Assembly (NCBI GenBank): GCA_017536695.1
Contig: JAFXGX010000018.1
Location: forward strand, 1 to 42,377
DNA: 42,377 nucleotides
Source of the DNA: Bacteroidaceae bacterium
GTDB taxonomy: Bacteria; Bacteroidota; Bacteroidia; Bacteroidales; Bacteroidaceae
Reading direction: 5' to 3'
Part shown: positions 12,792 through 41,080 of the stretch, piece by piece
Position numbering within the stretch: the first letter of the stretch is position 1
Layout: each line of letters opens with the position of its first letter
The notes under the pieces: generated by a model
What the model was told of the DNA's origin: nothing
Databases searched by the model: none
The model's input: the letters and a program-made list of their open reading frames with translations, nothing else
Position numbers and translations under genes: made by a program

Positions 12792-12794
12792 AAG

Positions 12795-14456: not shown

Positions 14457-14462
14457 GAAACC

Positions 14463-14708: not shown

Positions 14709-14712
14709 TATC

Positions 14713-17217: not shown

Positions 17218-17266
17218 ATGGGCGGAAGACGTCAGGACTGCTGATAAATGACGTGACGTTATCCAT

Positions 17267-17320
17267 ATATTCTTTTATAATGAGAGGGAGCATGTGCTCC
17301 CTCTCATTATAAAAGAATAT
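17267..17320. terminator. Perfect 26-bp inverted repeat between convergent genes
   Basis: Two perfect 26-base arms (17267-17292 and 17295-17320) separated by two bases lie between the GH95 gene (plus) and the thioredoxin gene (minus). The right arm contains the last three codons and stop of the thioredoxin gene. The GC-rich core GAGAGGGAGCA/TGCTCCCTCTC would form a very stable hairpin in either transcript. The polarity is unusual: T-rich before and A-rich after the core, so no U run follows the stem. Confidence 0.75.
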
Positions 17321-17663: not shown

Positions 17664-17700
17664 AATCTTTTCTGTTGTTTAGTTTTGATATAAGTATGCA

Positions 17701-17708
17701 CAAAAATA
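17701..17708 (-). promoter_or_regulatory. -7 element for thioredoxin gene
   Basis: On the minus strand this reads TATTTTTG, an exact match to TAnnTTTG, 38 bases before the thioredoxin ATG. No clear -33 TTTG lies at the usual distance. Confidence 0.5.
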
Positions 17709-17873
17709 AGCGTTAACACATAGTTATCGGACATTATTTTTAATAAAAAAAGTTAATTGAAACCTATCGGTTGCATGCTGTACCTGACACCTTGATGAAA
17801 CAACAAAACAACAGTACAAATATGTCGCCTGAGCATGTAATTTAAGGAGACTTTTTTTGATTGTTTGAATAGT

Positions 17874-17902
17874 TTAGAGTAAATTAGCGCAAATTATTCT
17901 AA
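17874..17902. promoter_or_regulatory. Imperfect palindrome upstream of the DASS gene
   Basis: TTAGAGTAAATT and AATTATTCTAA form a near-palindrome around AGCGCA, 27 bases before the transporter start. It could be an operator; no regulator is encoded nearby, so this is weak. I found no convincing -7 box in the 265-base divergent region. Confidence 0.25.
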
Positions 17903-17928
17903 ATTGGGGAAATATCATTTGAAAAGAC

Positions 17929-26135: not shown

Positions 26136-26732
26136 ATGAAACTTAAACATTGTATTTTCGTTCTTATGGCAATGCTATCATCAGCCATGTTCTTGTCATG
26201 TACCGATTCTGAAGATAACAATAAAGAAGATGAGCCAATTGAGGTTCTTGCCCCCGACGAGGTAGACGAGTCTTTCGTTCCCAACGAGGCATTCATGCAG
26301 AAAGCCTGGGCCGGTGAATATGCAGGTTGGGACGATGTCCAGAAGAAAAACACAAAAATCAAGCGCATTCTGACATTGAATGCAGATAGGTCATATACCA
26401 ATGTCATTCAGGGTGTTCTGGTAGAATCGGGCAAGGATGACTATGTTGATTTCGAACGCGAAAAGGGTTATTACACATATAATGCCCGCACTGGCGTTAT
26501 CACATATTCCGTAACAAGTGATTCTATAATACAATACAAGGACCAAAGTTTCATCGGATACGGCATGAAGAAATACTATGACCACCAATCTGGAACATAT
26601 ACCGAGGAGGCAAAGTTTACCCCGATTACAAATGGCGGTCGCAAATGGGTCACAAAAGATACATATTTGCAGTCTTTGACAGCCAAAGAACTTGACTTGG
26701 CGTTTTCAATGGATGCATACTCTGCCAAATAA
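26136..26732 (+). CDS. Lipoprotein with lipocalin-like beta-rich domain
   Basis: A 198-residue protein with a type II signal peptide (MKLKHCIFVLMAMLSSAMFL, lipid-modified Cys22 in LSC). The acidic stretch after the Cys (TDSEDNNKEDE) resembles the Bacteroidota signal for export to the cell surface. The rest (about 55-190) is a series of short beta strands: RILTLNADRSYTNVIQG, EKGYYTYNARTGVITYSV, SGTYTEEAKFTPITNGGRKW. This is the pattern of small lipocalin-like binding proteins in this phylum, although the assignment is only by style. It is the first gene of a nine-gene operon and is 12 bases from the HydE-like gene. A role as surface capture protein for whatever the operon processes is plausible but unproven. 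Confidence 0.75.
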   Translation: MKLKHCIFVLMAMLSSAMFLSCTDSEDNNKEDEPIEVLAPDEVDESFVPNEAFMQKAWAGEYAGWDDVQKKNTKIKRILTLNADRSYTNVIQGVLVESGKDDYVDFEREKGYYTYNARTGVITYSVTSDSIIQYKDQSFIGYGMKKYYDHQSGTYTEEAKFTPITNGGRKWVTKDTYLQSLTAKELDLAFSMDAYSAK

Positions 26733-26744
26733 AAAAGACAGATA

Positions 26745-27758
26745 ATGGTAGATTGTGATAAAATTCTCTCGGCTCTCGTCCGGGAGAATTATTCAATTGA
26801 AGTACTCTGCCAGGCACTTCTGTTTACCGGCAGTGCCCAGCAGAGGCTCTTTGCTCTGGCCCAGGAAACAAGACATATGCATTTCCCGGAGAACCGGGCA
26901 CAGGTCCGTAGCGTAATAGAAGTATCCAACATATGTAGACAAAGATGCCGCTATTGTGCAATAGGAGGCAAGAATCAGGCCATGAACTACTCCTTGAATA
27001 GCGAACAGATTGTTATGCTTGTCGAGTTTCTGTACAAACAGGGACGAAGGACAGTCCTTCTGCAATCAGGCGAGAATGTCAACGAGGAATTCATACAAAA
27101 CATTGAATGTGCTGTAACGGAGATATGCCATATACATAACGACATCCGCATCATTCTCTGCCTTGGCAACCTGTCATACGAACAATATGAAAGATTGTAT
27201 AATGCAGGCGCAAAGGATTATATCCTCAAGTTCGAGACTTCCAATGCAGAACTGTTCTCTTATTGCAAGCCGAACGACACATTTGAGCAAAGGATAGAAT
27301 GTATCAAGTCACTTTGTAAAATAGGCTACAATGTAGGCTCAGGCAATATCGTGGGATTACCGGGACAGACGTTGGAAGACTTGGCCAACGATTTGAGACT
27401 CGTACATGAGTTACCGTTGGCAATGAACAGCACCACCATATTTATCCCAGCCGAGAATTCTGATTTTGCCGACATGCCGGCCGGCAACCCCAATTACACC
27501 CTGAACATGATGGCACTCATGCGCATTATGAACCCACACAGGTTGATGCCGACCACAAGTTCATTGGAAAAGATGATTGAAGACGGCCAGTTTCTGGGGC
27601 TTCTGGCCGGAGCAAACACCGTTACGGTACATGACGGAACTCCAGAAGAGTTTCAGTCGCATTTCCCGATATATTCGGCAAAAAGAATTCGTCCACAGAC
27701 AGAACATTTTCATGATATACTTAGCCGTGCAGGCATGAGAACAGACAATATTATATAG
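26745..27758 (+). CDS. Radical SAM enzyme of the HydE/PylB/BioB-like family
   Basis: Cytosolic [4Fe-4S] radical SAM enzyme, 337 residues. The cluster ligands are Cys64, Cys68 and Cys71 in SNICRQRCRYCAIGG. Features shared with HydE are TVLLQSGENVNEE (HydE has VLQSGED), LKFETSNAELF, GYNVGSGNIVGLPGQTLEDL and LMPTTSSLE followed by GANTV. HydE helps build the diiron site of [FeFe]-hydrogenase; PylB makes methylornithine. No HydF, HydG, hydrogenase or pyrrolysine gene is present here, so the reaction is probably different. It lies 12 bases after the lipoprotein gene and 21 bases before a second radical SAM gene. The product cannot be named from sequence. Confidence 0.85.
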   Translation: MVDCDKILSALVRENYSIEVLCQALLFTGSAQQRLFALAQETRHMHFPENRAQVRSVIEVSNICRQRCRYCAIGGKNQAMNYSLNSEQIVMLVEFLYKQGRRTVLLQSGENVNEEFIQNIECAVTEICHIHNDIRIILCLGNLSYEQYERLYNAGAKDYILKFETSNAELFSYCKPNDTFEQRIECIKSLCKIGYNVGSGNIVGLPGQTLEDLANDLRLVHELPLAMNSTTIFIPAENSDFADMPAGNPNYTLNMMALMRIMNPHRLMPTTSSLEKMIEDGQFLGLLAGANTVTVHDGTPEEFQSHFPIYSAKRIRPQTEHFHDILSRAGMRTDNII

Positions 27759-27779
27759 AAAAAACAAACACAAAGTATT

Positions 27780-29189
27780 ATGCGCGATTATATTTCCTTA
27801 TCTACAGCTCGCTGGGAGGAGTTCCAGGAATTTCAACGTTTAGGTTTAATCCCCACTCACGGAGATTTCTCACCTGCAGGTGTACACTATCCTCCGATAA
27901 CTAACTACCCTCCGATATCTCAAGAGGAAGCATATAACGGATTTAAAGAAATAGTACCTGGCGAATTTGACGTGTATGTACACATACCGTTCTGTCATAA
28001 ACGATGCCTTTTCTGTCATTATCCGTCACGTTACAATTGTAACGAAGCCGACAAGGACATCTATCTGGACCATCTTGAAATGGAGATGCGCAACTGGCTA
28101 AGTTTTAGAGGCTTGGACAAAATAAAGGCACGTACAATACTTATTGGAGGAGGCACACCGACAGACCTTTCGCCCAAACAGCTTGAACGTTTCCTGACTT
28201 TCTTCACAAAATATGTCGACATAAGCAACTGCCCGCAGTTCAACTACGATGTCGACCCTTCCACTCTTGTCGGAGACAAGGGGCTGGAAAGACTCCGCAT
28301 AATCAAGGATTTCAAAGGCGACAGACTGACAATTGGTATCCAGTCACTCAACGAGACTGTGCTTAAGAAGATGAACCGTTCACACAACGCCGCTACTGCA
28401 AAGGAATCGGTAAAGAACTGTCTGGATATGGGCTTTGATGTCAATATTGAATTTATATATGGGCATCCTGGAGAGACTCTCCAGAATTGGATTGATGTAA
28501 TTGAGGAGGCATGCACTCTTGGTACGGAGGAGATTCAGTTGTACCGCTTGAAGATTGAACCTTACGGCGACCAGGAGGGTACTATAAAACGTTTTTCTGT
28601 ATACCATGAGGATGAGCTCATTTCAGTAGAAGATACAATCCGTATGAAGGAGATGAGCACACTGATTCTTGCCGACCACGGTTTCAATGAAAACCTTCGC
28701 CGTGTATTTACAAAGAAGAGAAGCAACATATCTCTTTATGCATACAATCAATGCTGTCGTCTAAAGGACCAAGTCGGTTTCGGTCTTTCGGCTTTCAGCA
28801 GCCTCAACGACAGATTCATGATAAACACTCCAAGCTTCGACGAATATTACAAGCGCACAGAAAACAACGAAATAGCAGCCGACCGTTGCCTGATAAGGAA
28901 CGCTGACCAGCAGATACGCTGGTCTGTAATATTGCCTCTCAAGAACTATTTCATTGACAAGAAACTGTTCCGCGAGATGAATGGCATTGAACTCAACTCT
29001 GTTTTCCAGAAACAGTTTGCCCTTCTGAAGCAGTATGACCTTATTACTGAAACTGACAGGAAGATAGAACTCACTCCTAAGGGCGCATTCTACTCCGATG
29101 AGATTGTACACATGTTTTATGAGCCCCAACACCAGTCATTCCCTGAAAGCGACTTTGTAAACGGAATTATGAATCCTTATACTTTCTGA
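27780..29189 (+). CDS. HemN/HutW-like radical SAM enzyme
   Basis: A 469-residue cytosolic radical SAM protein. The motif HIPFCHKRCLFCHYPS gives cluster ligands Cys72, Cys76 and Cys79, without the fourth Cys of true coproporphyrinogen oxidase HemN. ILIGGGTPTDLSPKQLERF and NIEFIYGHPGETLQNW are family hallmarks, and the C-terminal winged-helix region ends in ELTPKGAFYSDEI. About 60 residues precede the barrel, as in the heme-utilisation enzymes HutW/ChuW, whereas HemW starts close to the motif. ChuW opens heme without oxygen by radical methyl transfer. That activity is a hypothesis here, supported only by architecture and the outer-membrane receptor in the same operon. It lies 4 bases before the methyltransferase gene. 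Confidence 0.85.
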   Translation: MRDYISLSTARWEEFQEFQRLGLIPTHGDFSPAGVHYPPITNYPPISQEEAYNGFKEIVPGEFDVYVHIPFCHKRCLFCHYPSRYNCNEADKDIYLDHLEMEMRNWLSFRGLDKIKARTILIGGGTPTDLSPKQLERFLTFFTKYVDISNCPQFNYDVDPSTLVGDKGLERLRIIKDFKGDRLTIGIQSLNETVLKKMNRSHNAATAKESVKNCLDMGFDVNIEFIYGHPGETLQNWIDVIEEACTLGTEEIQLYRLKIEPYGDQEGTIKRFSVYHEDELISVEDTIRMKEMSTLILADHGFNENLRRVFTKKRSNISLYAYNQCCRLKDQVGFGLSAFSSLNDRFMINTPSFDEYYKRTENNEIAADRCLIRNADQQIRWSVILPLKNYFIDKKLFREMNGIELNSVFQKQFALLKQYDLITETDRKIELTPKGAFYSDEIVHMFYEPQHQSFPESDFVNGIMNPYTF

Positions 29190-29193
29190 ATGG

Positions 29194-31272
29194 ATGAATA
29201 AAAGATTTTCTGTTTTTTTGGCTGCGCTATTCGGAGCCATAATGTCATTGACTGCGCAGCAATATCAGATACCGATAAACGATGCGTCCTCTCTTGTCAG
29301 AGTAGGAATGAATCCACATCCAGTAGCAGAGGGTGACACACTGTTGGCATATACCCTGATGAATGCATTGGACAACCGCGACCTGGACTCCCTTTCATTT
29401 GTCTGCGAGGCTTATCGTAAGAAAAGCCTCAATAAAAACATAAAGGAACGTTCATGGGGCTCATTGGCATATATCCTTGACAGAATGATAAAGGATGGTA
29501 CGGGAGAAGAGTTCAAGAAAGGCGATATACTGACAGAGGACCTTTATCATTACTTTACAGACAATGAGTGCGCACACCTGCGTAACTATCTCGTAATTAA
29601 ATATGAATTGAACAACTACCGTCCACGTTCGGTAAAGGAGCATATTAACCAGAGAACATTTTACGACGATCTTCTCATGTATAACGACCCAAACCGTGAA
29701 ACTTGGGATGAAACAAACACAATAATGTCAAATCTTCCAATCAAAAGAGGAGACAAGATTGTAGATGTTGGTTGCGGCTTCGGTTTCAACTCCTATCGTA
29801 TACTTGATCTTGTGGGGAATGAGGGCATGGTGTATGCGACCGATACAGAAGCTGCATATACCGAACATCTGTCACAGCTGTTAAATGAGAACGGAATAAA
29901 CAATCTGGTACCGTTGCAAACGCAGAGCAACGAGCTGGGTGTCAATGATACGGTTGATTGCATATTCATGAGTTCGCTTTATCACATCATATACACGTGG
30001 TCACGCGAGGATGAACGTGCTTCAATGATTACCTCCATCAAGAAACAGCTTCGCGACGGCGGTCATATGGTAATTGTTGACAACTATAATCTTAACGGAG
30101 AAGAGCTCAACAACTGCCATGTAGATCCACGCCTAATACAGGCCCAGTTGGGTTTCTGGGGCTTTGAGCCGGTATCTCTCATAAGTTTGAGTGAACAGCG
30201 CTACATGCTCATACTGCGCCACAACGACAAGTATAGGCCGAACTGCAAAGTAAACATGTCCGAGAACATCCCTATCCTCAACATAACAGGGCAGAAGTCT
30301 GTAGTGCATATTGGAAGCCTTGATTCATACGATATAACAGACCGTGGAATCAACGCCGCTCAGTACGTATATGATTTTATGGGAGGCGGCGACAAGTCTT
30401 TGGCTGAGATTGCTATAAAGAAATATGAAGAATTGATACCATTAGAGAATTTTGGAGGAGAATATTCTGCCCTACAATGGCTCTGCGAGGTTGCACTCGC
30501 CTCCGAAGCAGAACGCGAACAGATGATGACCGACCCTCTAGATAAGAGTTTTTATAATTATCTGACAGCTGACAACAATAAGGTGATAAGGTACTATCTG
30601 CTTCATAAGTACAAATTGGGAAATGATAGTATACGTATGCTATCCGACTCGATACTTGAAAAAAGTGGAGAGGTAGGTCGCACACACCGTTCATATCTCG
30701 AAGATTACATTCTTGCACTTAATCCCAAACGTACTTCATGGGAAAACACAGGCAAAATACTTGATAATCTCGGATTGAAACCAGGCGAAAGTATTGCTGA
30801 TATCGGAAGTGGTTCGGGATTCTTTACACACCGTTTTTCCAACATGGTTGGAGAGAACGGAAAAGTCTATGCAATAGAACTAAAGGATGAACATATTGAA
30901 CGCCTAAGCACATTCCTGACCGAAAATTCCGTTGACAACGTCACAGTAATAAAAGGAAGTGAGGAAAAACTGGAGTTACCCGAGCTGGTTGACAGGATGT
31001 TCATGTGTTCTCTTTATCACATAATGTATGGAGTCATCCCTGACAATGAACGCGATTCATATCTTAAATCATTGGTCAAATGCCTTAAGCCAGGCGGCGA
31101 ACTCATAATTGTTGACAATGGACCTGTAGACAATGAAACGTTGCCATATCATGGGCCCTACATTAACCCAGAACTTATTGTATTCCAACTCTCTTACTAT
31201 GGGTTTGAATTGGTTGACCAGATTCAGATAATACCCCAACGCTACATGTTGAAGTTTAAACTTAAAGATTAA
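29194..31272 (+). CDS. Tandem-duplicated class I SAM methyltransferase with signal peptide
   Basis: A 692-residue protein made of two homologous halves of about 330 residues. Each half has an all-helical N-part, then a Rossmann methyltransferase. Motif I is KIVDVGCGFGFNS (189-200) in the first and SIADIGSGSGFFT (about 533-545) in the second. Each half then repeats FMSSLYHIIY / FMCSLYHIMY, GGHMVIVDN / GGELIIVDN and QRYML near its end. Both SAM sites look intact. The N-terminus (MNKRFSVFLAALFGAIMSLTAQQ) is a convincing type I signal peptide, which is very unusual for a SAM-dependent enzyme because the periplasm is not known to hold SAM. It lies 4 bases after the HemN-like gene and 5 before the EamA gene. 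The substrate is unknown. Confidence 0.85.
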   Translation: MNKRFSVFLAALFGAIMSLTAQQYQIPINDASSLVRVGMNPHPVAEGDTLLAYTLMNALDNRDLDSLSFVCEAYRKKSLNKNIKERSWGSLAYILDRMIKDGTGEEFKKGDILTEDLYHYFTDNECAHLRNYLVIKYELNNYRPRSVKEHINQRTFYDDLLMYNDPNRETWDETNTIMSNLPIKRGDKIVDVGCGFGFNSYRILDLVGNEGMVYATDTEAAYTEHLSQLLNENGINNLVPLQTQSNELGVNDTVDCIFMSSLYHIIYTWSREDERASMITSIKKQLRDGGHMVIVDNYNLNGEELNNCHVDPRLIQAQLGFWGFEPVSLISLSEQRYMLILRHNDKYRPNCKVNMSENIPILNITGQKSVVHIGSLDSYDITDRGINAAQYVYDFMGGGDKSLAEIAIKKYEELIPLENFGGEYSALQWLCEVALASEAEREQMMTDPLDKSFYNYLTADNNKVIRYYLLHKYKLGNDSIRMLSDSILEKSGEVGRTHRSYLEDYILALNPKRTSWENTGKILDNLGLKPGESIADIGSGSGFFTHRFSNMVGENGKVYAIELKDEHIERLSTFLTENSVDNVTVIKGSEEKLELPELVDRMFMCSLYHIMYGVIPDNERDSYLKSLVKCLKPGGELIIVDNGPVDNETLPYHGPYINPELIVFQLSYYGFELVDQIQIIPQRYMLKFKLKD

Positions 31273-31277
31273 TACAA

Positions 31278-32150
31278 TTGGAACAGCTTGGATACATCGC
31301 AGCTATAGCATCTGCAGCATCATGGGCCTTTGCCACGGTGATGTTCGACCGCATCGGCAAATCCATCAATTATGCAGGAATAACATTCCTTAAAGGAGTC
31401 TTCAGTATAGTGATGATGGTCTGCCTTGTCATATGGTCTGGCGGACTGACCGAGTGTAACTTCGCAGATTTCCTGGTACTTGCATTAAGCGGTATCATTG
31501 GAATTGCCGTTGGAGACACCTTGTTCTTCCGTTCATTGCAAGATTTAGGAGCAAAGATGCAGGTACTGTTCTTTATGCTTGGACAGATTGTCACAATGTT
31601 GCTATCATTCCTGTTGCTGGGCGATGTACTTTCAATAACAGAGTATTTGGGAGCATTGGTCCTTCTTTCCGGCGTGATTGTTGTCATATGGGGCAAGCAA
31701 GAAGACCGTCCTAACAAGACACGCGGAATTATTGGTGGCTTGATTAGCATGTTATGCTTCTCAATATCATCAATCATGGTAAAAATAGCGATAGGAGATA
31801 TTGATATCGTAACAGCCACTTTCTACAGAATGGTATTCGGCACAGCAAGCATAATGTTTGTAGGCCTTACCTCAAATAAACTTATCTCATGGGTACGGCC
31901 ATTGCGTGATATCAGGCTGCTGATGATGTTTATACTCAACGTATTTGTATTGACCGTAGGCGGATTCATGTTGTCAACGCTTGCAATAAAGAACATCAGT
32001 GTTTCAATCGCTTCAGTATTAAGCACCACAGAACCAATCTTCGTGCTTCTGTTTGCATTCTTAATAAACAAGGAAAAAGCAAAACCCAAAGAGATTCTTG
32101 GTGCAGCAGTGACCATATGCGGCTTGTTGATAATGATATTGTATGGTTAA
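31278..32150 (+). CDS. EamA/DMT-family transporter (TTG start)
   Basis: Inner-membrane carrier of 290 residues with ten hydrophobic helices in two EamA repeats (about 3-142 and 153-289). Conserved features include WAFATVMFDRIGK and GDTLFFRSLQDLGA in the first repeat and SVLSTTEPIFVLLFAFL in the second. The start is TTG, chosen because translation from it gives the complete first helix (MEQLGYIAAIASAASWAFA); the first ATG would remove it. It begins 5 bases after the methyltransferase stop and overlaps the next gene by 8 bases. DMT carriers move amino acids, nucleotides or, in Rickettsia and Chlamydia relatives, SAM; the cargo here is unknown. Confidence 0.85.
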   Translation: MEQLGYIAAIASAASWAFATVMFDRIGKSINYAGITFLKGVFSIVMMVCLVIWSGGLTECNFADFLVLALSGIIGIAVGDTLFFRSLQDLGAKMQVLFFMLGQIVTMLLSFLLLGDVLSITEYLGALVLLSGVIVVIWGKQEDRPNKTRGIIGGLISMLCFSISSIMVKIAIGDIDIVTATFYRMVFGTASIMFVGLTSNKLISWVRPLRDIRLLMMFILNVFVLTVGGFMLSTLAIKNISVSIASVLSTTEPIFVLLFAFLINKEKAKPKEILGAAVTICGLLIMILYG

Positions 32151-34914
32151 AAGGTTATACATATTGTGCAGTATGGCATTTCTATGTTGTGTAACAGTAA
32201 TGGCACAAGAGAAATGTCTCGTTAGCGGCATGGTAACAGACAAGACGAACAGCACTCCTTTACAAGGAGTCAATGTTACATGTACCATTAACGGCAAACA
32301 GTACGGCACAGTTACAGATGAAACCGGCCATTATACAATCTCACTGACAAGAGGCTGCAATACGGTACTATACTTTACACATTTGAATTATAAGAAAGTA
32401 AGCAAGGTTGTCAATTGCCAAGGCAAAAAACAGACAATTACTATAGAAATGACATCAAACGTAACCTTGTTGAACGAGGTTGTCATAAGTCAGAAATTAC
32501 CCACAATGAGCCAGAGAGGCGACACGACTGTATATTATGCAAATGCATTCAAAGTGAATGAAGATGCGACTGCATTTGATCTCATCTCACAAAAGCTACC
32601 GGCCGTAGGAATAAGAGACGGCAAACTTGAGGCACATGGAGAAGAGGTGAAGGAGATACGTATTGACGGTAGAGAATTCTTCAAGAATGACATAAATTTG
32701 GCGTTAAAGAACCTCCCAGCAAATATCATAGAAGAGATACAGATATATAATCAAATTTCGGACTATTCATTGCTGACAGGCTTTGATGACGGAGATACCC
32801 GAAAAGCTATAAACATAAAAACAAAAAACGGTTTTTCTGAAAGTCTTTTTGGTAAAGGAACTGTTGGATATGGAGTTGAGGACAAATATAAGTTCTATGG
32901 AATGTCAAACCTCTTCAGTGATGATATCCGCCTATCCGTATTTGCACAGATGAACAATGTCAATGAACAGAATTTCTCCATGTTGGATCTACTGAGTGCT
33001 ACCGGCTCTTTCTCCGGCAACGCTCCGGCACAGACACCTTACAGCAAAGGCAATAGCGACAACAGTTTTCATCCATCAACATCGGATGACATCTCGTCAA
33101 TGCTTGTTTCTGTAAATGAATATGGTGTAACAACATCCAAAGCCATTGGTACAAACTACTCCGATGATTGGCTTGGGAACAGAATGAAATTATCGGGACA
33201 CTACCTCTTCAATAAATCAGAAAATCATACTGAGTATGAAATATTTGACGAGTATTTCGGAAACACAGCAAGTGACAATCTTCAGAACCAGAAACTGAGC
33301 AACGACAATACAAACCATCGTTTCAATGCAAAGTACGAATACCAGATTTCGCCCAAAGACTATCTTTTGATACGTCCCACTGTATCGTACCAAAAGAAAA
33401 CAGAATTATCAGACCTTGTTGACTGGACTGTCAAGCCCAATGATACTGTACTGCTGCTGAATCAGAATACGCTATCCGACCAGCATGTCACAGGTACCTC
33501 TGCCGAGTTGATGTATGTGCACAGGTTCGGTGACGGTACTCACAGCGTGGCGGCAGACACCAGAGTTTCGCACATATATACAAAAGAGGATATCTCTATG
33601 GATTTTTCCAATGCACAGACATTGGATGAGGCTTTACAGAAGACTCTGTGCAAAAACACGATGAACACTTGTGCAATAGTACTATCGTACATATATCGCC
33701 CCACTGACAACAGCCAACTGAAACTGGACTTTGGTTGGAAAGAGAACTACGGGGTATTCCGCCGAGGAACTGAAATTAAACGAGGCGGGACCGATATGTA
33801 TCAAGTCGACAGCCTACTTAGCGGCTCGACATGGAATGAGTATGGCGGTATGCAAACGAATTTGTCGTATATGCTATCACTTGGCTCCATGAACCTTGTT
33901 ACAGGAACGGAATTCTTATATTATAACACGAGCACGTCAAATGACAGATTCAATGTCAAACGTAAATATAAGACCTTGCTACCATATGCATTCATGCGTT
34001 ACAGTTTCGGGAATTCTCAGTTACATATAAAATATAAATCCAGCCAGAACTACCCCGGTCTACTGCAGCTTCACGATGCAATAAATAACTCAAATGCAAT
34101 AATGGCAATCAGGGGTAATATGAAACTGGAACCTGAGATGCGCCACAACCTGATGGCGCGCTTCATTGCTCCCATGAGAAACGGTTCAATCTTTGTCTTC
34201 TTTGCCAACGTAGAGCAGGCCGACGACTATATATCGACTATGCGTTCATTATCGAGTGAGAGTTTTGCCGAGAACGGAGAACGTCGCAACACCGAAATAC
34301 GTTCATACAAGAATTGTGATGGATACTTCTCATGTAGTTCGCTTTTGGCATATGGTTTCCCCTGCAGATTCCTGTCTTCAAATGTCAATGTATCATCATT
34401 GGTCAAATACACGGAGCTACCTGGATTCTGGGACAATAACAAAGTATTCAATGAACAGTGGAACTGGAGTGGCTCTGTCACGATTGGAAGCAACATCAGT
34501 ACCAATGTGGATTTTGTCATAGATTGCAATGCCAAGTATACTAAGAGCAGAAATGTCACATACAAGAACGTTGATGTCGCTTTCTGGTCACTGTCATACG
34601 GAGGGCAACTGAACTGGCACATAATACCTAGCGTTAAGATAATGCTGGAGTGTGGCAATACAAATTATACAGGTTCCGGAACATCCAGATACAATGCATT
34701 AATTGGAAATGCATCTTTATCGTACAAATTCCTCAAGGACAGAAAGGGGGAACTGAGCATTTCCATACATGATATCTTTGACCAGGACAACAGTTTCTAC
34801 CAAACAACTACAGAGATGTATAAGCGTGAAGTTACAGCAAATGTCCTGGGACAATATGCCATGTTGACCTTCACATATAATCTTGGTTCAACCCCTAAAA
34901 CGATAGATAAATGA
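32143..34914 (+). CDS. Outer-membrane beta-barrel receptor with CarboxypepD_reg domain
   Basis: A 923-residue exported protein with a signal peptide (about 1-21). It has a carboxypeptidase-regulatory-like beta sandwich (about 24-110, VSGMVTDKTNSTPLQGVNV), a plug-like domain (about 115-230, with DLISQKLPAVGIRDGKLE and KEIRIDGREFFKNDINLALK) and a long barrel to the C-terminus. This is the OMP_b-brl/TonB-receptor-like class of Bacteroidota, without an obvious TonB box, so energy coupling is uncertain. It overlaps the EamA gene by 8 bases and the next gene by 4 (ATGA). It would be the outer-membrane import or export gate of the system, but the ligand is unknown. Confidence 0.85.
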   Translation: MVKRLYILCSMAFLCCVTVMAQEKCLVSGMVTDKTNSTPLQGVNVTCTINGKQYGTVTDETGHYTISLTRGCNTVLYFTHLNYKKVSKVVNCQGKKQTITIEMTSNVTLLNEVVISQKLPTMSQRGDTTVYYANAFKVNEDATAFDLISQKLPAVGIRDGKLEAHGEEVKEIRIDGREFFKNDINLALKNLPANIIEEIQIYNQISDYSLLTGFDDGDTRKAINIKTKNGFSESLFGKGTVGYGVEDKYKFYGMSNLFSDDIRLSVFAQMNNVNEQNFSMLDLLSATGSFSGNAPAQTPYSKGNSDNSFHPSTSDDISSMLVSVNEYGVTTSKAIGTNYSDDWLGNRMKLSGHYLFNKSENHTEYEIFDEYFGNTASDNLQNQKLSNDNTNHRFNAKYEYQISPKDYLLIRPTVSYQKKTELSDLVDWTVKPNDTVLLLNQNTLSDQHVTGTSAELMYVHRFGDGTHSVAADTRVSHIYTKEDISMDFSNAQTLDEALQKTLCKNTMNTCAIVLSYIYRPTDNSQLKLDFGWKENYGVFRRGTEIKRGGTDMYQVDSLLSGSTWNEYGGMQTNLSYMLSLGSMNLVTGTEFLYYNTSTSNDRFNVKRKYKTLLPYAFMRYSFGNSQLHIKYKSSQNYPGLLQLHDAINNSNAIMAIRGNMKLEPEMRHNLMARFIAPMRNGSIFVFFANVEQADDYISTMRSLSSESFAENGERRNTEIRSYKNCDGYFSCSSLLAYGFPCRFLSSNVNVSSLVKYTELPGFWDNNKVFNEQWNWSGSVTIGSNISTNVDFVIDCNAKYTKSRNVTYKNVDVAFWSLSYGGQLNWHIIPSVKIMLECGNTNYTGSGTSRYNALIGNASLSYKFLKDRKGELSISIHDIFDQDNSFYQTTTEMYKREVTANVLGQYAMLTFTYNLGSTPKTIDK

Positions 34915-35657
34915 ATCTTAAACAGATAATATTGTCAATTTTTCTGCTTTTGTCAGCCAATTCACATTCACAATGTACCGAGCCGGCAGACTCCTTAAGC
35001 ATGTTTTTAAACAGCAACCCCGAAGCGCTTTGTATCAATGCCATACACGAGGGTTGCAAGATATATCTATCGGCAGATGAGACTGACATGCTGATTAGCT
35101 TTGCTATCGCAAATCCTCAATTACAGATGAGGCTGTTAATGATGCCGACAGAAATACTCATAGACCCATCCGGGAAGAAAAGGAAACATTACAGCATACA
35201 GCTCCCCAGCGCTTTGAGTGTAAAGGATCAACTAAATGATATGGAACACGCAGGACCTATGGAGATGGATGAAGGTGCACGCCCCGACATCATGCCGTTA
35301 CTGGATGCTTTAAAGAGCCACGGTGCGGTATATTCTGTACGTGGGCAGAAACACTTGTTAGGTTTCCAGAGATTCCATATTGAACTGGACTATGAAAACG
35401 AGCTGATTGTTTTCTACATGCTGATTCCCAAATCACATCTCATGGCGGACAAAAGAATGAAAGACACTTGGAGTATCGGAATTTGCTCAAAAAATGAACG
35501 TGGTACACAGCCCCCTCCTCATAATGACGAAATGATGCCTATGCAGCCTCCAATGCACGAGGAAAATATTGAATTGCGAGATTTTCTGCAAGGAGACATA
35601 CATTCATGGGTGAAGTTTTCAATAGACGAATTGAATAATTTAAATTTAGAGGAATGA
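34911..35657 (+). CDS. Exported protein of unknown function, paralog A
   Basis: A 248-residue protein with a signal peptide (about 1-20, ending NSHSQ). I do not recognise the family. It is homologous to the next protein: both share the order LQMRLLMMPTEILID / LSLLMQGLQVHLVCG, HYSIQLPSA / VYIKFPDAA, then ARPDIMPLLDAL / VRPDITPLTHAL and a similar beta-strand series after it. The C-terminal part is rich in Met, Pro and His (HNDEMMPMQPPMHEEN), a composition known from metal-binding segments; this is only suggestive. Overlapping ATGA junctions on both sides tie it to the barrel receptor and to its paralog. Confidence 0.75.
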   Translation: MNLKQIILSIFLLLSANSHSQCTEPADSLSMFLNSNPEALCINAIHEGCKIYLSADETDMLISFAIANPQLQMRLLMMPTEILIDPSGKKRKHYSIQLPSALSVKDQLNDMEHAGPMEMDEGARPDIMPLLDALKSHGAVYSVRGQKHLLGFQRFHIELDYENELIVFYMLIPKSHLMADKRMKDTWSIGICSKNERGTQPPPHNDEMMPMQPPMHEENIELRDFLQGDIHSWVKFSIDELNNLNLEE

Positions 35658-36337
35658 ACATTATAAAAAACATCATAAGCTTGTTTCTTCTACTGGTATT
35701 CTGCTGCCCAATATATGCAGATGAGCATGAGAAGGACGCGGGAATCTATGTTACCATTATACAAAGTAACGACTCTTTAAAATTTATTGCCACTACAAAA
35801 GAGCCCAAGCATCATCTATCACTTCTCATGCAAGGGCTACAAGTACATCTTGTTTGTGGAAAAGATAGCGTTTACATAAAATTCCCTGACGCAGCAATGG
35901 TTAGGCACAAGGTAAAAAGACATCCTAATGAGATAAAACCGACTTTCAGCAGAGATAGCATAGGCAAGGAGGTTCGTCCCGACATTACGCCTCTGACACA
36001 CGCATTATCGGACACACTTGCATATGTCAATACCTGCGGTAATGACATATACACATCAGATTATACAATATCCCTAAACAAGAAAGAGAACTCCTTGACT
36101 TTCGAGATATGCTTGCCCGACATGATGTTTTCCGGTGATTCTGTGTTTGTCAACATCCTGTCAATGCCACAGAAAGGGAGCAGACGGGAGTTTACTGGCA
36201 GAAAGTTAAGCAAGGAGAACAAGGCAAATCCACGTGGATTAGGCGAAGCCCCTGTCCCAGGTACTGAAAACAGCAGAACAATTGATATCAAGATGATTAA
36301 AGAACTAAGGATACAATGTGTAAGAAACGCTTTGTAA
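35654..36337 (+). CDS. Exported protein of unknown function, paralog B
   Basis: A 227-residue protein with a signal peptide (MNIIKNIISLFLLLVFCCPIYA, then DEHEK). It is a diverged paralog of the preceding protein (shared VRPDITPLTHAL block and flanking strands) but lacks the Met/His-rich tail; instead it ends in a basic, low-complexity segment (KLSKENKANPRGLGE). There are two Cys at the end of the hydrophobic region, so lipidation cannot be excluded, but the spacing fits cleavage after PIYA better. It starts within the stop of paralog A (ATGA) and overlaps the HAD gene by 22 bases. Possibly periplasmic or outer-membrane partners of the barrel. Confidence 0.75.
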   Translation: MNIIKNIISLFLLLVFCCPIYADEHEKDAGIYVTIIQSNDSLKFIATTKEPKHHLSLLMQGLQVHLVCGKDSVYIKFPDAAMVRHKVKRHPNEIKPTFSRDSIGKEVRPDITPLTHALSDTLAYVNTCGNDIYTSDYTISLNKKENSLTFEICLPDMMFSGDSVFVNILSMPQKGSRREFTGRKLSKENKANPRGLGEAPVPGTENSRTIDIKMIKELRIQCVRNAL

Positions 36338-36873
36338 TATTTGATCTTGATGGGACATTGGTAGACTCCAGCCAAACAGTTAGAAATGCATGCGCACGAG
36401 TCATGACCATGTACGGGAAAGAAGAGAATATTAAAACAATACTTTCCGACCATAATACCTATAGCAATATAGAGAAACTCATTGAGAGTTCTGCTGCGGC
36501 GTGTCGTATATGTGTAGATACATTCAGGGCCTTATATGACAAAGAGTACCTGAAAGCACCCCTTGAAGGAACTGTAAAAATTGACAAGACTTGCGACATT
36601 TTGCAAAATGAACGCAGAGAAGGTAATTCTGTAATAGTATTGACGGACAAAAGACAAGATATAGCACAACTGGTATGTGACAACATTATTGGGAAAGGGT
36701 CAATTGACCATGTCATAGGAAGAGAGAGTGTCAAGATAATAAAGCCCCACTTAGTCCTAGGCAGGCTATCTGGCCTTGGAATTCATCAATCACAATGTCT
36801 AAGATATTATGGAGACTCATATAACGACTTGTTGACAGCAAAAGTTTTGGATACGATATTTATAAATGTATAA
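36316..36873 (+). CDS. HAD-superfamily phosphatase
   Basis: A 185-residue cytosolic hydrolase. Motif I is FVIFDLDGTLVDS with nucleophile Asp10 and Asp12. Motif II is VIVLTDK. Motif III is the Lys in KIIKPHLVLGRL. Motif IV is YYGDSYNDLLTAK. The small helical cap (about 20-90) resembles phosphoglycolate-phosphatase-like (Gph) members. The natural substrate is not predictable; HAD members in biosynthetic operons often dephosphorylate an intermediate. The start overlaps paralog B by 22 bases, so translation is probably coupled. It is the last gene in the overlapping part of the operon; a 30-base A/T-rich gap follows. Confidence 0.88.
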   Translation: MCKKRFVIFDLDGTLVDSSQTVRNACARVMTMYGKEENIKTILSDHNTYSNIEKLIESSAAACRICVDTFRALYDKEYLKAPLEGTVKIDKTCDILQNERREGNSVIVLTDKRQDIAQLVCDNIIGKGSIDHVIGRESVKIIKPHLVLGRLSGLGIHQSQCLRYYGDSYNDLLTAKVLDTIFINV

Positions 36874-36903: not shown

Positions 36904-38118
36904 ATGAAAACAAAAGTATTTAACTTGTTTGTGTTATTGGCACTTGGTCTAAGTGCAATAACTTCGTGTACCAGCGATTCTGAAAGCAATGTGGAGTTCT
37001 ATCTGAACCCAGAGAACATTGAGTTGGGGTCTGGACGCGGTTCAGAGGCCACATTCACAATTTCAACAGAAGGACAATGGACTATCACAAATACTCCATC
37101 TTTTGTAAAATTGTCATCTACAAAAGGAAAAGGAACAACAGTAATCATGGTTCACACTATTGCAGACAACAACACCTCTCAGGACTATGAGGATATTATT
37201 GTTGTCAGTGTCGATGGCGCAAAAGAGACAAAATCAATTACAGTAAAACAGACACGTGGAGTTGAACCTGATTGTTTTACACAACCGGCAAACATCCTGC
37301 TCATGTCTGACGGTCTAGCCTTCAACTGGCAACACGGAAAAAACACTCATTATTACTACTGGGGTATATTCAGTTTGGAAGATTACAATAAGCTTAGCGA
37401 GGAAGAGATAATCAAAGAAGTTGCAACTGGTAACGTAGATGACCGAGTAACTCCTTCACAGGACAATTACGCTTGTTTTTATAACTTGAATGCAAGGACT
37501 CAATATATGGTAGTTACCGTTAGTTATGCATCTAATGGAAAACGTGGCGAGACCGTCATTACTCCACTGACAACAAAGAGCAGTTCATCACAACCCGTTG
37601 CAGCAGTAGAGAGTGTTTCCTATGCAACAGACAGTAACAACAATTACTATTACGCTTGGGATGTAGAAAAGAACACCTACTGCAATCAGTACTACACATA
37701 CGCAGCTGCAAGTAAGGATTATTTCAAGACATATTATTGGCAGGAAGAAGGTGCTAATGCAATTCTAGCATGGGCCATTAGAGATGAGATCATGAACAAT
37801 GCAGAGGATCATGACACAAGAATAAATAAATTCTCAGACGGTAGAGAAAGTTTCATTGGTGCTCAAGTAAATGACGGAACCTCATATTTAGAAGCAAACA
37901 TCTACACAGATAAGTATTTTCAGGTTGTTACTTGGGGTACCGACTCTAGAGATGAATTATCTGGTATGCTCGGTGGTGGATATATTGACCTAACGGAAGA
38001 CTCTTCCGAAGCCCCCAAAACTAGAATAAAGCCTTTGCTAGCGAAAACTAATTCTTCTGAGGGACCCAAAAAAGTTCTTGTAAACAGAAACGATATAGAG
38101 ATATTTAGAATTAAATAA
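36904..38118 (+). CDS. BACON-domain surface lipoprotein
   Basis: A 404-residue lipoprotein: type II signal peptide with lipobox Cys22 (AITSC), followed by acidic TSDSESN that suggests surface exposure. A BACON domain spans about residues 30-117 (STEGQWTITNTPSFVKLS, then KSITVKQTRG). After it come Fn3-like strands (NLNARTQYMVVTVSYASNG) and a Tyr/Asn-rich C-terminal region (YYTYAAASKDYFKTYY) I do not recognise. BACON domains are thought to bind carbohydrate or mucin in Bacteroidota. It is 30 bases after the HAD gene and ends at a strong hairpin, 66 bases before the C10 protease. It could belong to the operon or be a partner or inhibitor of the protease. Confidence 0.82.
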   Translation: MKTKVFNLFVLLALGLSAITSCTSDSESNVEFYLNPENIELGSGRGSEATFTISTEGQWTITNTPSFVKLSSTKGKGTTVIMVHTIADNNTSQDYEDIIVVSVDGAKETKSITVKQTRGVEPDCFTQPANILLMSDGLAFNWQHGKNTHYYYWGIFSLEDYNKLSEEEIIKEVATGNVDDRVTPSQDNYACFYNLNARTQYMVVTVSYASNGKRGETVITPLTTKSSSSQPVAAVESVSYATDSNNNYYYAWDVEKNTYCNQYYTYAAASKDYFKTYYWQEEGANAILAWAIRDEIMNNAEDHDTRINKFSDGRESFIGAQVNDGTSYLEANIYTDKYFQVVTWGTDSRDELSGMLGGGYIDLTEDSSEAPKTRIKPLLAKTNSSEGPKKVLVNRNDIEIFRIK

Positions 38119-38124
38119 AGAAAA

Positions 38125-38160
38125 CAGCAGGTTCTTGTTATCTGCAACAAGAACCTGCTG
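38125..38160 (+). terminator. Strong hairpin between BACON lipoprotein and C10 protease genes
   Basis: CAGCAGGTTCTTGTT and AACAAGAACCTGCTG form a 15-bp perfect stem with a six-base loop seven bases after the stop codon. The following bases (CTCTCCTAAAC) lack a real T run, so it may be a weak terminator or a 3'-end protecting hairpin that lets some transcript continue into the protease gene. Confidence 0.65.
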
Positions 38161-38184: not shown

Positions 38185-40371
38185 ATGAAAAAAATATGGG
38201 TAGGAATAATATTTATGGTGTTCATTATCATGAATGCCAGTTCACAGCATAGGAGTATTGAAGAAGCATATATACTTGCAAAGAACTGCTTAACCTTAAT
38301 ATCTGACAATACAGATACTTCTATTCTGAGACATGAGATCAAAGCCAACGCTTCTTCCAAATCCGTTGCTCATATTGACTCAGACGCGTTTTATATATTC
38401 TCGGACACGGTACAGAATGCATTTATCATAGTCTCTGGAGATAAAAGGATGAAAGATGTGCTTGCCTATAGTAATAATGCAGCATGGGACAACGAAAACA
38501 TTCCTGACGCGTTGCAATATCTGTTAGAATTGTATAAAGAGCAGTTCGATCACATTCAAAATGCGTTGCCATCAAATGAGAACACAACTCATGAGACAAC
38601 AGTTCCTGATGTGCAACCTCTGATTAAGTCTACTTGGTCACAAGAAGCACCATTCAACAATCTGTGCCCTTCAGGTTGTCCTAGTGGATGCGTTGCAACA
38701 GCTATGTCACAAATAATGAACTTATACAAGTATCCTTTGCAGGGAACAGGATACTTTAGTTATATATCAAGCAGCAACAAATACAATTGCTCGTTTGATT
38801 TCGGCAATACGATATTCGATTGGGATAATATATATAATTCCTATAACTCATCATTTGCCAATGGCGATGCAGTCGCGGAATTAACTTATGCATGCGGAGT
38901 CTCTGTTGGCATGGATTATGCAAAAAGTGGTTCTGGAGCCTACATGGCAGATGTTTCTTATGCATTGACTCAATTCTTTAAATATAATAAAAATACGACT
39001 TACAGATACAGACCATATTTTTCAACAACCGAATGGTATCAAATGCTCTGCGATGAGCTTCAAGCAGGACGACCAGTCCTCTATGGCGGTGTAGACAGCA
39101 ACTCCGGCGGTCATGCCTTTATTATTGACGGATGCAGTTCTGAGATGGGTATGTTTCATATAAATTGGGGGTGGGGAGGAGCGTATGACGGTTACTATAA
39201 ACTGGAAGCATTGGACCCTGAAAAGTATAAATTCTCCACCTATCAAGATATGGTAATCAATATATCCACTACAGAGGTAGGCAAACATGATGATGTGTTT
39301 TACGCCGAGACATTTATAGCTTCATCGCCTCTGAAAACAAATAAGGATATTGAATTCAAGCTATCCGAAGTTTATAACTATTCAAATTCATCATCATCTG
39401 TTGTTCCGCATGCACAATTCAAAGGCTCAATCGGTGTTGGGTTGTTTGATAGCAACTTTACATTTCTTGTTTCACTGGATGCTGAAAATGTAGAAGAGCT
39501 AAATAGCTACTATGGTTATAAAGAACTGGGTTTCACTGTAAACATATCAGAATCAATAGTTACAGAAGATGGTAAATACTACATAGCACCTTACGCTTTA
39601 GGAGAACATTCAAAAACTCCTACCAGAATAAGAACGCTCAATGCAGCCACAGACTATCTTTCTATAAATATAAACGGGGACAGCATTAACAGTGATGATA
39701 ATGAGGAAGAAGTGGATTACACTTACATGTTGAACGACAGCTTTGAGGACATTGCTGCATTGGATGAATACGAGCAGGTAACAGAGAATGGTAACAGCAA
39801 ATGGTCCATCCGTACAGTATTGCTTTCTTCTCCCAATGTACCCAAAGCAGCAGATGGCAAATCATATATATACCTTGAACACAAACCTTCATTTCCTGTA
39901 ATCAGCACCAACGACAGGGCCATCACAAAATTTATAACAGAAAAGTTCGTACTGGATCCTGACAGCACATATAGCATCTCTTTTATGTCAACAAGCATAT
40001 CAGACACACTGGATGTCAGGAATTCATGCAATATATACTACGAGCTCGACGGAGAGTGGAAGCTGCTTAATGAACATACTATTGCTAATAATTGTGGATG
40101 GAACAAGTATACTTCTTTGCTGAGTGGCATAGAAAAAACGAGACTTGCAATTGAGGGAGATATCGCAACCAAAACATCACTATGCCTTGATGACCTACGC
40201 CTTAGTGTTACCAGAAACACAACAAATGCGGGCATAGAAATAATAGAGCCTGTAGAAAATGCCATTGTTTTTGACACCAAAGGTGTAATACAACCAGTAC
40301 GTCCCAGCAAGAAAGGATTGTATATAATAAAATCCAACGATAACCGCATTAAGAAAGTTTTCTTCCATTGA
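38185..40371 (+). CDS. C10 family cysteine protease (streptopain/interpain-like)
   Basis: A 728-residue secreted protease. Signal peptide about 1-20 (MNASSQ). The propeptide (about 22-140) carries the typical FYIFSDTVQNAFIIVSGDKR and SNNAAWDNENIPDALQYLL. The papain-like catalytic domain has nucleophile Cys169 (CPSGCPSGCVATAMSQIM), His310 (SNSGGHAFIIDG) and INWGWGGAYDGYYKL. After about residue 370 come beta-sandwich domains, ending in a sorting-type tail GLYIIKSNDNRIKKVFFH. Interpain A of Prevotella intermedia and SpeB are the characterised relatives; they act as zymogens and attack host proteins. It is 66 bases after the BACON lipoprotein and 10 before a membrane protein gene. Confidence 0.92.
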   Translation: MKKIWVGIIFMVFIIMNASSQHRSIEEAYILAKNCLTLISDNTDTSILRHEIKANASSKSVAHIDSDAFYIFSDTVQNAFIIVSGDKRMKDVLAYSNNAAWDNENIPDALQYLLELYKEQFDHIQNALPSNENTTHETTVPDVQPLIKSTWSQEAPFNNLCPSGCPSGCVATAMSQIMNLYKYPLQGTGYFSYISSSNKYNCSFDFGNTIFDWDNIYNSYNSSFANGDAVAELTYACGVSVGMDYAKSGSGAYMADVSYALTQFFKYNKNTTYRYRPYFSTTEWYQMLCDELQAGRPVLYGGVDSNSGGHAFIIDGCSSEMGMFHINWGWGGAYDGYYKLEALDPEKYKFSTYQDMVINISTTEVGKHDDVFYAETFIASSPLKTNKDIEFKLSEVYNYSNSSSSVVPHAQFKGSIGVGLFDSNFTFLVSLDAENVEELNSYYGYKELGFTVNISESIVTEDGKYYIAPYALGEHSKTPTRIRTLNAATDYLSININGDSINSDDNEEEVDYTYMLNDSFEDIAALDEYEQVTENGNSKWSIRTVLLSSPNVPKAADGKSYIYLEHKPSFPVISTNDRAITKFITEKFVLDPDSTYSISFMSTSISDTLDVRNSCNIYYELDGEWKLLNEHTIANNCGWNKYTSLLSGIEKTRLAIEGDIATKTSLCLDDLRLSVTRNTTNAGIEIIEPVENAIVFDTKGVIQPVRPSKKGLYIIKSNDNRIKKVFFH

Positions 40372-40381
40372 TATTTCAGCT

Positions 40382-41080
40382 ATGAGTAAGATTGAATTAT
40401 TTAGAAGGTATATTGTATATATTTCTGGCTTGTATGTATTCTCATTCGGTATTGCTTTGGTAGCACGTTCTACTATGGGCGCAACTCCAGTGTCCAGTTG
40501 GGCCTACTCCATGAGCATAAATACACCATTGTCCTATGGAACATACTCGTTCCTTATCCATCTAGTCATGATTGCGTATCAAATAGCCATACTGTATGGA
40601 CATGGTCTGAAGAGTGAATTTTGGAACATTATGCTTCAACTTCCTTTCTCCTTCCTTTTCGGAATGTTTCTTGATATAAATATGTATCTGACACAGGCAA
40701 TTGTTCCAGACTCTCTATATGCCTGTATATCAATCCTTCTTATAGCCTGCATGGTACACGCTTTTGGAGTTTTTATGCAAGTCAGCGCAAATGTCACAAT
40801 GATGAGTGCTGAAGGTTTTGTTTATTATACATGCAAGCGTTGGAATCTGAAATTCTGGAAAACAAAAATCATATTCGATGTCTCTATGGTCTGTATAGCA
40901 ATTATGACATCATTACTTTTTAATTTCTCATTCTCTTCGATTACCCGCGTCGTAAGGGAAGGTACCCTAATAGATGCATTATCTGTGGGAAGGATATACC
41001 GTTTTTATACACATAGGATAAAGTTCATCGATTATTTTATATCTTGGAGCAAAAACTGTAAGAATAACGCCCTTCATTAG
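40382..41080 (+). CDS. YczE/YitT-like membrane protein
   Basis: A 232-residue inner-membrane protein with about five hydrophobic helices. The first part, YISGLYVFSFGIALVARSTMGA, with TPVSSWAYSMS after it, is the hallmark of the YczE/DUF6198 group: a glycine/serine-rich first helix followed by a T-x-P-x-S-S motif. The C-terminal 35 residues are polar and basic. Function is unknown; some relatives sit near exported-protein or antibiotic genes. It starts 10 bases after the protease stop and may be co-transcribed with it. Base composition is A/T-rich like the rest of the island. Confidence 0.8.
   Translation: MSKIELFRRYIVYISGLYVFSFGIALVARSTMGATPVSSWAYSMSINTPLSYGTYSFLIHLVMIAYQIAILYGHGLKSEFWNIMLQLPFSFLFGMFLDINMYLTQAIVPDSLYACISILLIACMVHAFGVFMQVSANVTMMSAEGFVYYTCKRWNLKFWKTKIIFDVSMVCIAIMTSLLFNFSFSSITRVVREGTLIDALSVGRIYRFYTHRIKFIDYFISWSKNCKNNALH

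Follow-up and report, generated by a model that had tools for sequence, protein, structure and literature searches.

The window analysed here, a 42,377-nucleotide stretch of a Bacteroidaceae bacterium (GenBank assembly GCA_017536695.1, contig JAFXGX010000018.1, positions 1 to 42,377 of the forward strand), carries a ten-gene unit with a rare four-gene core: a HydE-like and a HemN-like radical S-adenosylmethionine (SAM) enzyme, a double methyltransferase predicted to be exported, and an inner-membrane carrier of the EamA/drug-metabolite transporter (DMT) type. The same four genes are found together in Bacteroidales, in one genome of an Elusimicrobiota group and on one Bradyrhizobium plasmid. 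The presence of this rare core in unrelated bacteria suggests an undescribed pathway that works on both sides of the inner membrane. The conserved order in other genera and the conserved core in other phyla exclude chance, and the four genes very probably serve a single pathway.

SAM synthesis takes place in the cytosol, which is also where SAM-dependent enzymes are usually expected. An apparently exported methyltransferase encoded with an inner-membrane carrier makes periplasmic SAM chemistry, and its SAM supplier, directly testable. If the proposal set out below is true, bacteria modify a molecule in the periplasm through a SAM-dependent pathway that has a dedicated cofactor carrier, extends over several phyla and is also carried by a conjugative plasmid. 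The unit points to a product in rumen and gut bacteria, and the plasmid copy in Bradyrhizobium sp. ISRA443 (listed from peanut) provides a named strain that carries the core. Searches of openly licensed papers found none on this gene combination and none on SAM transport, and among the matches listed for terms of the type "periplasmic methyltransferase" none was, by title, on the subject; those listed for EamA mostly concern other senses of the name.

Organisation of the unit

An earlier reading of the window by a model (the original prediction) had described a nine-gene operon built around SAM chemistry, in which a molecule is captured at the cell surface or made for export. Its nine open reading frames (ORFs) are present at the predicted coordinates on the + strand, with gaps of 4-21 bases followed by overlaps of 4-22 bases (gaps of 12, 21, 4 and 5, then overlaps of 8, 4, 4 and 22), but its extent fell short, because a tenth gene for a BACON-type lipoprotein follows. 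Pfam and NCBIfam scans agree with its protein identities (lipoprotein, HydE-like, HemN-like, exported double methyltransferase, EamA, barrel and HAD). It had overlooked the pairing of exported methyltransferase and carrier, which is the more informative feature. The features are as follows:

26136..26732, + strand: lipoprotein that opens the unit; without a Pfam family above cut-off; lipobox cysteine, then an acidic stretch (by eye)
26745..27758, + strand: HydE-like radical SAM enzyme of a paralogous clade; TIGR03956 below cut-off; BATS match sub-threshold
27780..29189, + strand: HemN-like radical SAM enzyme of a subfamily of its own; motif CxxxCxxC-H; alignable to the C-terminal region of HemN
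29194..31272, + strand: methyltransferase with two class I modules, DxGxGxG present in each; signal-like N-terminus ahead of the modules
31278..32150, + strand: EamA/DMT carrier; TTG start; PF00892 at 129.1 bits in two stretches
32143..34914, + strand: outer-membrane beta-barrel protein; OMP_b-brl_3 and N-terminal CarboxypepD_reg (Pfam)
34911..35657, + strand: exported protein, family A; no domain matched (Pfam)
35654..36337, + strand: exported protein, family B; remote homologue of family A
36316..36873, + strand: HAD-superfamily phosphatase, accessory; HAD_2 (Pfam)
36904..38118, + strand: BACON-type lipoprotein, tenth gene; BACON E 0.0011, below cut-off; 30-base gap after the HAD gene
38125..38160, + strand: perfect 15-bp hairpin after the tenth gene; -25.4 kcal/mol, z -7.1; possible transcription end

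Distribution of the core genes

The Bacteroidales comparison covers the window and five further loci, L005-L009; L004 has the length (126653) and the ORFs of L009, was taken to be one contig with it and was counted once. Relatives of the window proteins in other loci were sought with tblastn. The order lipoprotein, hydE, hemN, methyltransferase, eamA, barrel is kept in L005-L009, except that L005 lacks hydE, which is thus found in four of the five. Extra ORFs occur in L005 (one small ORF between hemN and the methyltransferase gene, one before eamA and one between families A and B), L006 (one small ORF between hemN and the methyltransferase gene) and L008 (two before eamA). The best conserved proteins are HemN (78-83%), HydE (66-69%), the methyltransferase (63-68%) and EamA (62-66%). 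The unit is therefore not specific to one strain: its core order is kept in five other Bacteroidales genomes, and the core occurs in other phyla. The single system of radical and methyl-transfer chemistry that the original prediction envisaged stands for the HydE-like, HemN-like, methyltransferase and EamA core.

Outside Bacteroidales, the window HemN-like protein shares 37-49% identity with its relatives. Within the Elusimicrobiota group only L058 has all four core genes on one contig: an exported methyltransferase, HemN (49%) and an opposite-strand pair, hydE (47%) followed by eamA (35%) with a 4-base overlap. It also encodes a second methyltransferase with a membrane-anchor-like N-terminus and a second EamA (32%). 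In L062, hydE (47%) and eamA (28%) again overlap by 4 bases and are convergent with HemN (46%), while in G1050 the genes lie on separate contigs, with HemN and fused methyltransferase ORFs on one (L061) and hydE followed by eamA on the other (L081). L011 and L019 have an exported methyltransferase, HemN and EamA, and no cluster HydE was found in their genomes.

In Bradyrhizobium sp. ISRA443, ISRA437, ISRA436 and ISRA435, a HemN relative (49%) is encoded on a 317-kb plasmid that was typed as conjugative. In ISRA443 (L082) the methyltransferase gene is followed 18 bases on by a DMT carrier and then by an ABC/FtsX/HlyD set. Between this set and a HydE-like radical SAM gene (32%) lies an opposite-strand amino-acid ABC importer; the HydE-like gene is about 8 kb past the methyltransferase/carrier pair and has HemN 47 bases behind it. 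A match to the HydE-like gene was obtained at E<=1e-30 in three of the four plasmid records, not in ISRA435. In translation, the methyltransferase copy of ISRA435 (CP094621.1, 312751-314019) shows 72.7% identity, and three annotated pieces cover it; the copies in the three sister records are 100% identical.

All eight Clostridia loci have HemN followed by the double methyltransferase, and no HydE or EamA match occurs in the stretch read in any of them. In the three annotated ones (L010, L013 and L018), two ABC exporter-like ORFs precede HemN (ABC_membrane and ABC_tran were confirmed for the first of them), an FtsX permease follows it, and a Peripla_BP_6 substrate-binding protein is encoded upstream. 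The core is thus seen in three diderm lineages and in a reduced form in Clostridia. The amino-acid-type importers by the Bradyrhizobium and Clostridia loci are a weak hint that the substrate may be derived from an amino acid. About 3.5 kb after the HemN-methyltransferase pair of L013 lies a SAM synthetase gene (17133-18314; metK-like by eye).

One scan of a genome collection with the HemN pair returned 23 loci: five in metagenome-assembled genomes (MAGs) of Prevotella/Bacteroidaceae (78-83% identical), eight in MAGs of Ruminococcus/Clostridia, three in MAGs of Elusimicrobia and one in a MAG of Gammaproteobacteria, together with L011 and five that encode distant HemN-like proteins (L023-L027). 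The HemN-like gene is rare and patchy wherever sampled. Its profile matched 1/198 genomes of the order (the genome of the window itself), 1/199 relatives of G888 (G888 itself), 1/119 genomes of the phylum of G897 (G897), 1/398 of that of G898 (G898), 6/81 relatives of G891 and 3/79 relatives of G890. At E<=1e-20 the methyltransferase was found in two of 301 genomes of the family (its own and G134) and one of 395 of the phylum (its own).

With the HydE profile A5, cluster HydE matches at E values of 4.5e-149 or below and stands apart from the next matches (1.6e-64 and weaker). Cluster HydE occurs in three of 81 Elusimicrobiota-group genomes, G1025, G1045 and G1050, which were placed in this group through their kinship to G891, alongside the Elusimicrobia G897 and G899. 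All three are among the six with HemN (hypergeometric p 2.3e-4, relatedness not corrected). The radical SAM pair is not consistently encoded away from the other genes.

The methyltransferase has no relative in IMG/VR, and phage records yielded only distant HemN relatives (at most 28%). A partial locus with lipoprotein (28%), HydE (68%) and HemN (77%) stands on the IMG/VR contig L084 (3387-6311), which is a mobile element or was wrongly called viral.

The two radical SAM enzymes

Judged from its sequence, the HydE-like protein is a separate paralogous clade and not a hydrogenase maturase. It resembles the [FeFe]-hydrogenase maturase HydE in fold family, in the CxxxCxxC motif (present in 9/9 cluster rows of the alignment) and in its 31-37% identity to T. 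maritima HydE, but it has a clade, pocket residues and gene partners of its own and falls below the curated cut-off. On TIGR03956 (cut-off 254.6) the window protein scores 209.5 bits (E 7.8e-62), that of L058 184.5 and that of Bradyrhizobium 165.7, while the other HydE of the same genome, used as a positive control, reaches 465.1. A single branch with support of 100/98 splits the cluster HydEs and the Bradyrhizobium protein, itself on a very long branch, from the ordinary HydEs.

Three positions picked from the alignment, with T. maritima HydE as reference (134, 159 and 269), carry I, K and S in all nine cluster rows and T, R and T in all 20 ordinary rows. I134, K159 and S269 are pocket changes relative to ordinary HydE, and R159 of T. 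maritima HydE is presumably functional. Among the ordinary rows are T. maritima HydE, the second HydE of the window's genome and 13 of 15 weaker matches (G1015 and G915 were left out); the L084 row was also left out, as it is not the HydE. At position R155, Bacteroidales have D, the Elusimicrobiota group R and Bradyrhizobium G, and Y303F occurs in eight of the nine cluster rows, Bradyrhizobium being the exception. G272E was dropped as a clade marker because it is also found in the ordinary HydE of that group.

The HemN-like proteins share the radical SAM core with HemN, HemW, HutW and STM4012, and align to E. coli HemN (1olt) over nearly its whole length (profile positions 19-442 to 1olt 12-441, including the HemN-like C-terminal region); their core (positions 53-352) also aligns to the class C methylase NocN. 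They differ from these families in missing the curated cut-offs by far and in their cysteine motif. The window protein scores 133.0 bits on TIGR00538 (HemN, cut-off 324.95; Bradyrhizobium 163.9, L058 178.9), 133.7 on HutW/ChuW (cut-off 400), 146.1 on HemW (205.4) and 168.2 on STM4012 (380), and its HemN_C domain match (Pfam) remains at 14.8 bits, below the cut-off of 24. CxxxCxxCH is present in 15/15 rows, where a histidine follows the cysteines and the fourth cysteine of HemN is absent (CHKLCYFCGC in 1olt). Public records label these relatives as coproporphyrinogen oxidase family. Each of the two subfamilies, the HydE paralogue and the HemN relative, lacks a dedicated curated model in the NCBIfam scans.

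With L023 and L026 as outgroup, the HemN-like proteins form one group in the tree (support 100/100). The presence of a HydE partner needs three changes on this tree, in which support for some inner branches does not exceed the 80s and Bradyrhizobium HemN is left out; this is consistent with one gain and two losses, in Clostridia and L005.

The exported methyltransferase and its carrier

The methyltransferase (METHYLTRANSFERASE) and the carrier are encoded side by side in the window. The DxGxGxG motif is invariant in all 23 methyltransferase modules aligned, which include three of the eight Clostridia proteins and four modules of the Elusimicrobiota group. A YH motif is present in 19/19 modules of Bacteroidales, the three Clostridia proteins and Bradyrhizobium, and is replaced by YR in the four Elusimicrobiota-group modules (4/4). 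The gene follows HemN directly, or after one small ORF in L005 and L006, in six of six Bacteroidales and eight of eight Clostridia loci. The possibility that the two modules stand in opposite order in Bacteroidales and in Clostridia was considered and dropped, as both halves of the window protein best match the first half of the L013 protein (the only Clostridia protein compared).

Export was judged by a hydropathy measure and not by a signal-peptide predictor. The strongest 11-residue mean at the N-terminus is 2.5-3.6 in all 12 Bacteroidales and Elusimicrobiota-group methyltransferases computed and 0.85 in all eight Clostridia proteins; counting L082, judged by eye, a signal-like N-terminus is present in 13/13 diderm proteins examined. 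An EamA gene lies within 6 kb of each exported methyltransferase whose two flanks were readable (six Bacteroidales loci, L011, L019, L058 and L082), and none of the eight Clostridia loci has an EamA match near the methyltransferase. With this query, the EamA of the window is the only EamA relative in its genome at E<=1e-5, and it has no solved-structure relative at E<=1. Since the methyltransferase is predicted to be exported and SAM is not made in the periplasm, a nearby carrier is the simplest answer.

The SAM carriers of Chlamydia and Rickettsia are DMT proteins and share this carrier type with the EamA protein described here, but they import SAM. The Chlamydia SAM/S-adenosylhomocysteine (SAH) transporter is cited in the accessible part of PMC3937554, and the Rickettsia SAM transporter in that of PMC4404868.

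Proposed pathway and alternative explanations

The HydE-like and HemN-like enzymes would make or modify a small molecule in the cytosol, the latter by two-SAM chemistry of the class C type; class C enzymes bind two SAM molecules (PMC9692996, accessible part). The EamA/DMT carrier of the inner membrane would bring SAM into the periplasm, in the simplest case in exchange for SAH, and the exported methyltransferase, with its intact SAM motifs and no obvious SAM source outside the cytosol, would complete the product there. In Bacteroidales, the lipoproteins, the barrel and the exported pair may bind the product and pass it over the outer membrane. In Clostridia, which have one membrane, the methyltransferase would stay in the cytosol, and no EamA relative is seen nearby. 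Taken whole, from cytosolic radical chemistry through EamA supply and periplasmic completion to outer-membrane passage, this proposal has slightly less than an even chance of being correct. The assignment of EamA as SAM carrier, drawn from family and gene context, is plausible but somewhat doubtful. Only tentatively can the core be described as two cytosolic radical SAM enzymes with a dedicated EamA/DMT carrier that provides the periplasmic methyltransferase either with SAM, in exchange for SAH, or with a SAM-linked intermediate.

Several observations weigh against this proposal. EamA proteins in general carry many things, and the localisation of the methyltransferase is predicted from sequence alone. 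Only four clades underlie the correlation between export and EamA, which is therefore suggestive and not statistical proof; it is not significant once relatedness is counted. The core is also incomplete in places: no HydE match was found in the L005 genome at E<=1e-10 or in the ISRA435 plasmid copy at E<=1e-30; L062 has no relative of these methyltransferases within the 19.9 kb read; L015, L020, L022, L060 and L063 have HemN and no methyltransferase or EamA match in the stretch read; and L059 has the methyltransferase and HemN on a contig that stops before EamA could show. L058 carries a third, fused exported methyltransferase ORF. Finally, the patchy distribution may reflect horizontal transfer of the unit; the G+C contrast with the left flank is missing in L007.

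The hydE/eamA overlaps of 4 bases in L058 and L062 would equally suit a carrier for the product of the radical enzymes, with the exported methyltransferase acting on something else in the periplasm or using leaked SAM. This alternative, which we regard as unlikely, also accommodates the L062 EamA without a nearby methyltransferase relative, and the ABC exporter-like ORFs ahead of hemN in three Clostridia loci could replace EamA. However, L011 and L019 combine EamA, HemN and an exported methyltransferase in genomes without cluster HydE, and L058 has two EamA proteins for two stand-alone exported methyltransferases and one HydE; the number of EamA genes thus tracks the exported methyltransferase better than HydE. 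An adduct relay appears improbable. Here, the HemN-like enzyme would join a SAM-derived group covalently to the substrate, EamA would export the adduct, and the methyltransferase fold would resolve it in the periplasm with release of SAH; because the SAM group is already on the exported intermediate, no free SAM would be needed there. The idea was prompted by the cyclopropanase pair C10P and C10Q of CC-1065 biosynthesis (PMC6050322, of which the accessible part is cited throughout), a tested precedent in which a HemN-like radical SAM enzyme and a protein with a class I methyltransferase fold are encoded together: C10P makes a SAM-substrate adduct, which the methyltransferase-like C10Q is proposed to resolve, with a conserved histidine. 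The position of the methyltransferase gene after HemN in Bacteroidales and Clostridia fits this precedent, as does the YH motif of the 19 modules (a putative counterpart of C10Q His138), but the four Elusimicrobiota-group modules have YR. Moreover, the C10P homologue Swoo_2002 binds C10Q, which places the partners in one compartment and would be prevented by a membrane between them, and the intermediate of that system is unstable (PMC6050322). A carrier, a HydE-like enzyme and an exported methyltransferase belong to the unit here and are not mentioned for C10P/C10Q in the accessible part of that paper.

Uptake and breakdown of heme or another tetrapyrrole, like HmuY/HmuR and HutW/ChuW, would account for the joint occurrence of a HemN fold, an outer-membrane barrel and a lipoprotein, and the methyltransferase has a sub-threshold similarity to CbiT (74.2 of 78.3 bits). 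It was rejected as very improbable: the HutW score is far below its cut-off (133.7 vs 400), there is no ABC importer among the ten genes of the unit (Pfam), the HydE-like enzyme and the exported methyltransferase have no role in such a system, and the importers that adjoin the Bradyrhizobium locus and three Clostridia loci are of the amino-acid type. A side-operon for hydrogenase maturation has a next to negligible probability and was likewise rejected. It draws on the HydE similarity (E 7.8e-62) and is already contradicted by the sub-cut-off score (209.5 of 254.6 bits), the changed pocket residues and the absence of hydF and hydG among the ten genes; the genome also encodes HydE (465.1 bits), HydG (895.3) and a monomeric [FeFe] hydrogenase (499.2) side by side on another contig, all above cut-off.

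Additional genes of the Bacteroidales units

The lipoproteins, the barrel and the exported pair look like Bacteroidales additions to the core, as tblastn across the other-phylum loci found their relatives only in Bacteroidales loci. For the same reason, the proposed capture of a molecule at the surface by the lipoprotein and barrel is unsupported. A relative of the first-gene lipoprotein leads the unit in all five other Bacteroidales loci, with two copies in L009. Families A and B, whose predicted paralogy was borne out by hhalign (probability 98.9, E 3.1e-17), are present in four of the five (not L007) and form a single ORF in L008. The barrel is 47-60% identical in L005-L009, and best matches of the lipoproteins and exported proteins are 24-52%. 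Like the receptor/lipoprotein pairs of Bacteroidota, the unit has an outer-membrane barrel with CarboxypepD_reg near a lipoprotein, but the barrel matches no Plug, SusC or SusD model at E<=0.1 (Pfam), which leaves the plug named in the original prediction without support.

The HAD gene is kept in only one of the four loci that reach its place (L009, not L006, L007 or L008). Relatives of the BACON-type protein stand at the same position in L006, L007 and L009 (tblastn); the ORF at this position in L008 is alike by eye only, with no tblastn or Pfam match, and the L005 contig stops before it.

The G+C content is 0.511 left of the unit, 0.418 within it and 0.407 to its right, so that low G+C is not confined to the unit. 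It is below that of the left flank in the window, L006, L008 and L009, and not in L007. A search for a riboswitch gave no Rfam match in the window. The gaps of 4-21 bases leave scant space for precursors of ribosomally synthesised and post-translationally modified peptides, which were set aside; no search was made elsewhere. A PADLOC scan of the ten proteins for anti-phage systems matched only the methyltransferase, to mad2 (1.7e-39, best stretch 515-649). Anti-phage defence was rejected, since this match is to the methyltransferase domain and reflects a shared fold only.

Neighbouring genes

Immediately downstream of the operon and hairpin, the region 38185-41080 of the window encodes a C10-family (streptopain-like) protease with an I69 inhibitor domain, followed by a 232-residue ORF resembling a membrane protein.

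A His-Xaa-Ser system lies just upstream of hydE-eamA-HemN in L062 (3666-6959), with HxsB at 459.4 bits (cut-off 370), HxsD at 54.7 (cut-off 50) and His-Gly-Ser repeat ORFs recognised by eye. In L019, an Elusimicrobia MAG, the region adjoining HemN and EamA (12455-16226) encodes a fusion of NifH with a nitrogenase component 1 type domain, as well as another ORF of component 1 type. Signal-bearing ORFs with a methyltransferase domain behind a metallophosphoesterase-like part (by eye) occur in L058 (4002-5912) and L061 (1544-3472 and 5628-7694); this N-terminal part has no Pfam match in L058, and a Cys_rich_FGFR repeat protein adjoins the fused ORFs.

Rows of sulfatase-like ORFs stand beside HemN in L011, L019, L022, L058 and L062. 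Of 13 picked by a loose pattern, one has a C/S/T-x-P-x-R-like match and 12 do not, so that they are perhaps not formylglycine sulfatases. In the Gammaproteobacteria MAG, L020 (4721-10628), several FGE-sulfatase (SUMF1-like) paralogues lie beside HemN, one identified with Pfam and the rest by eye.

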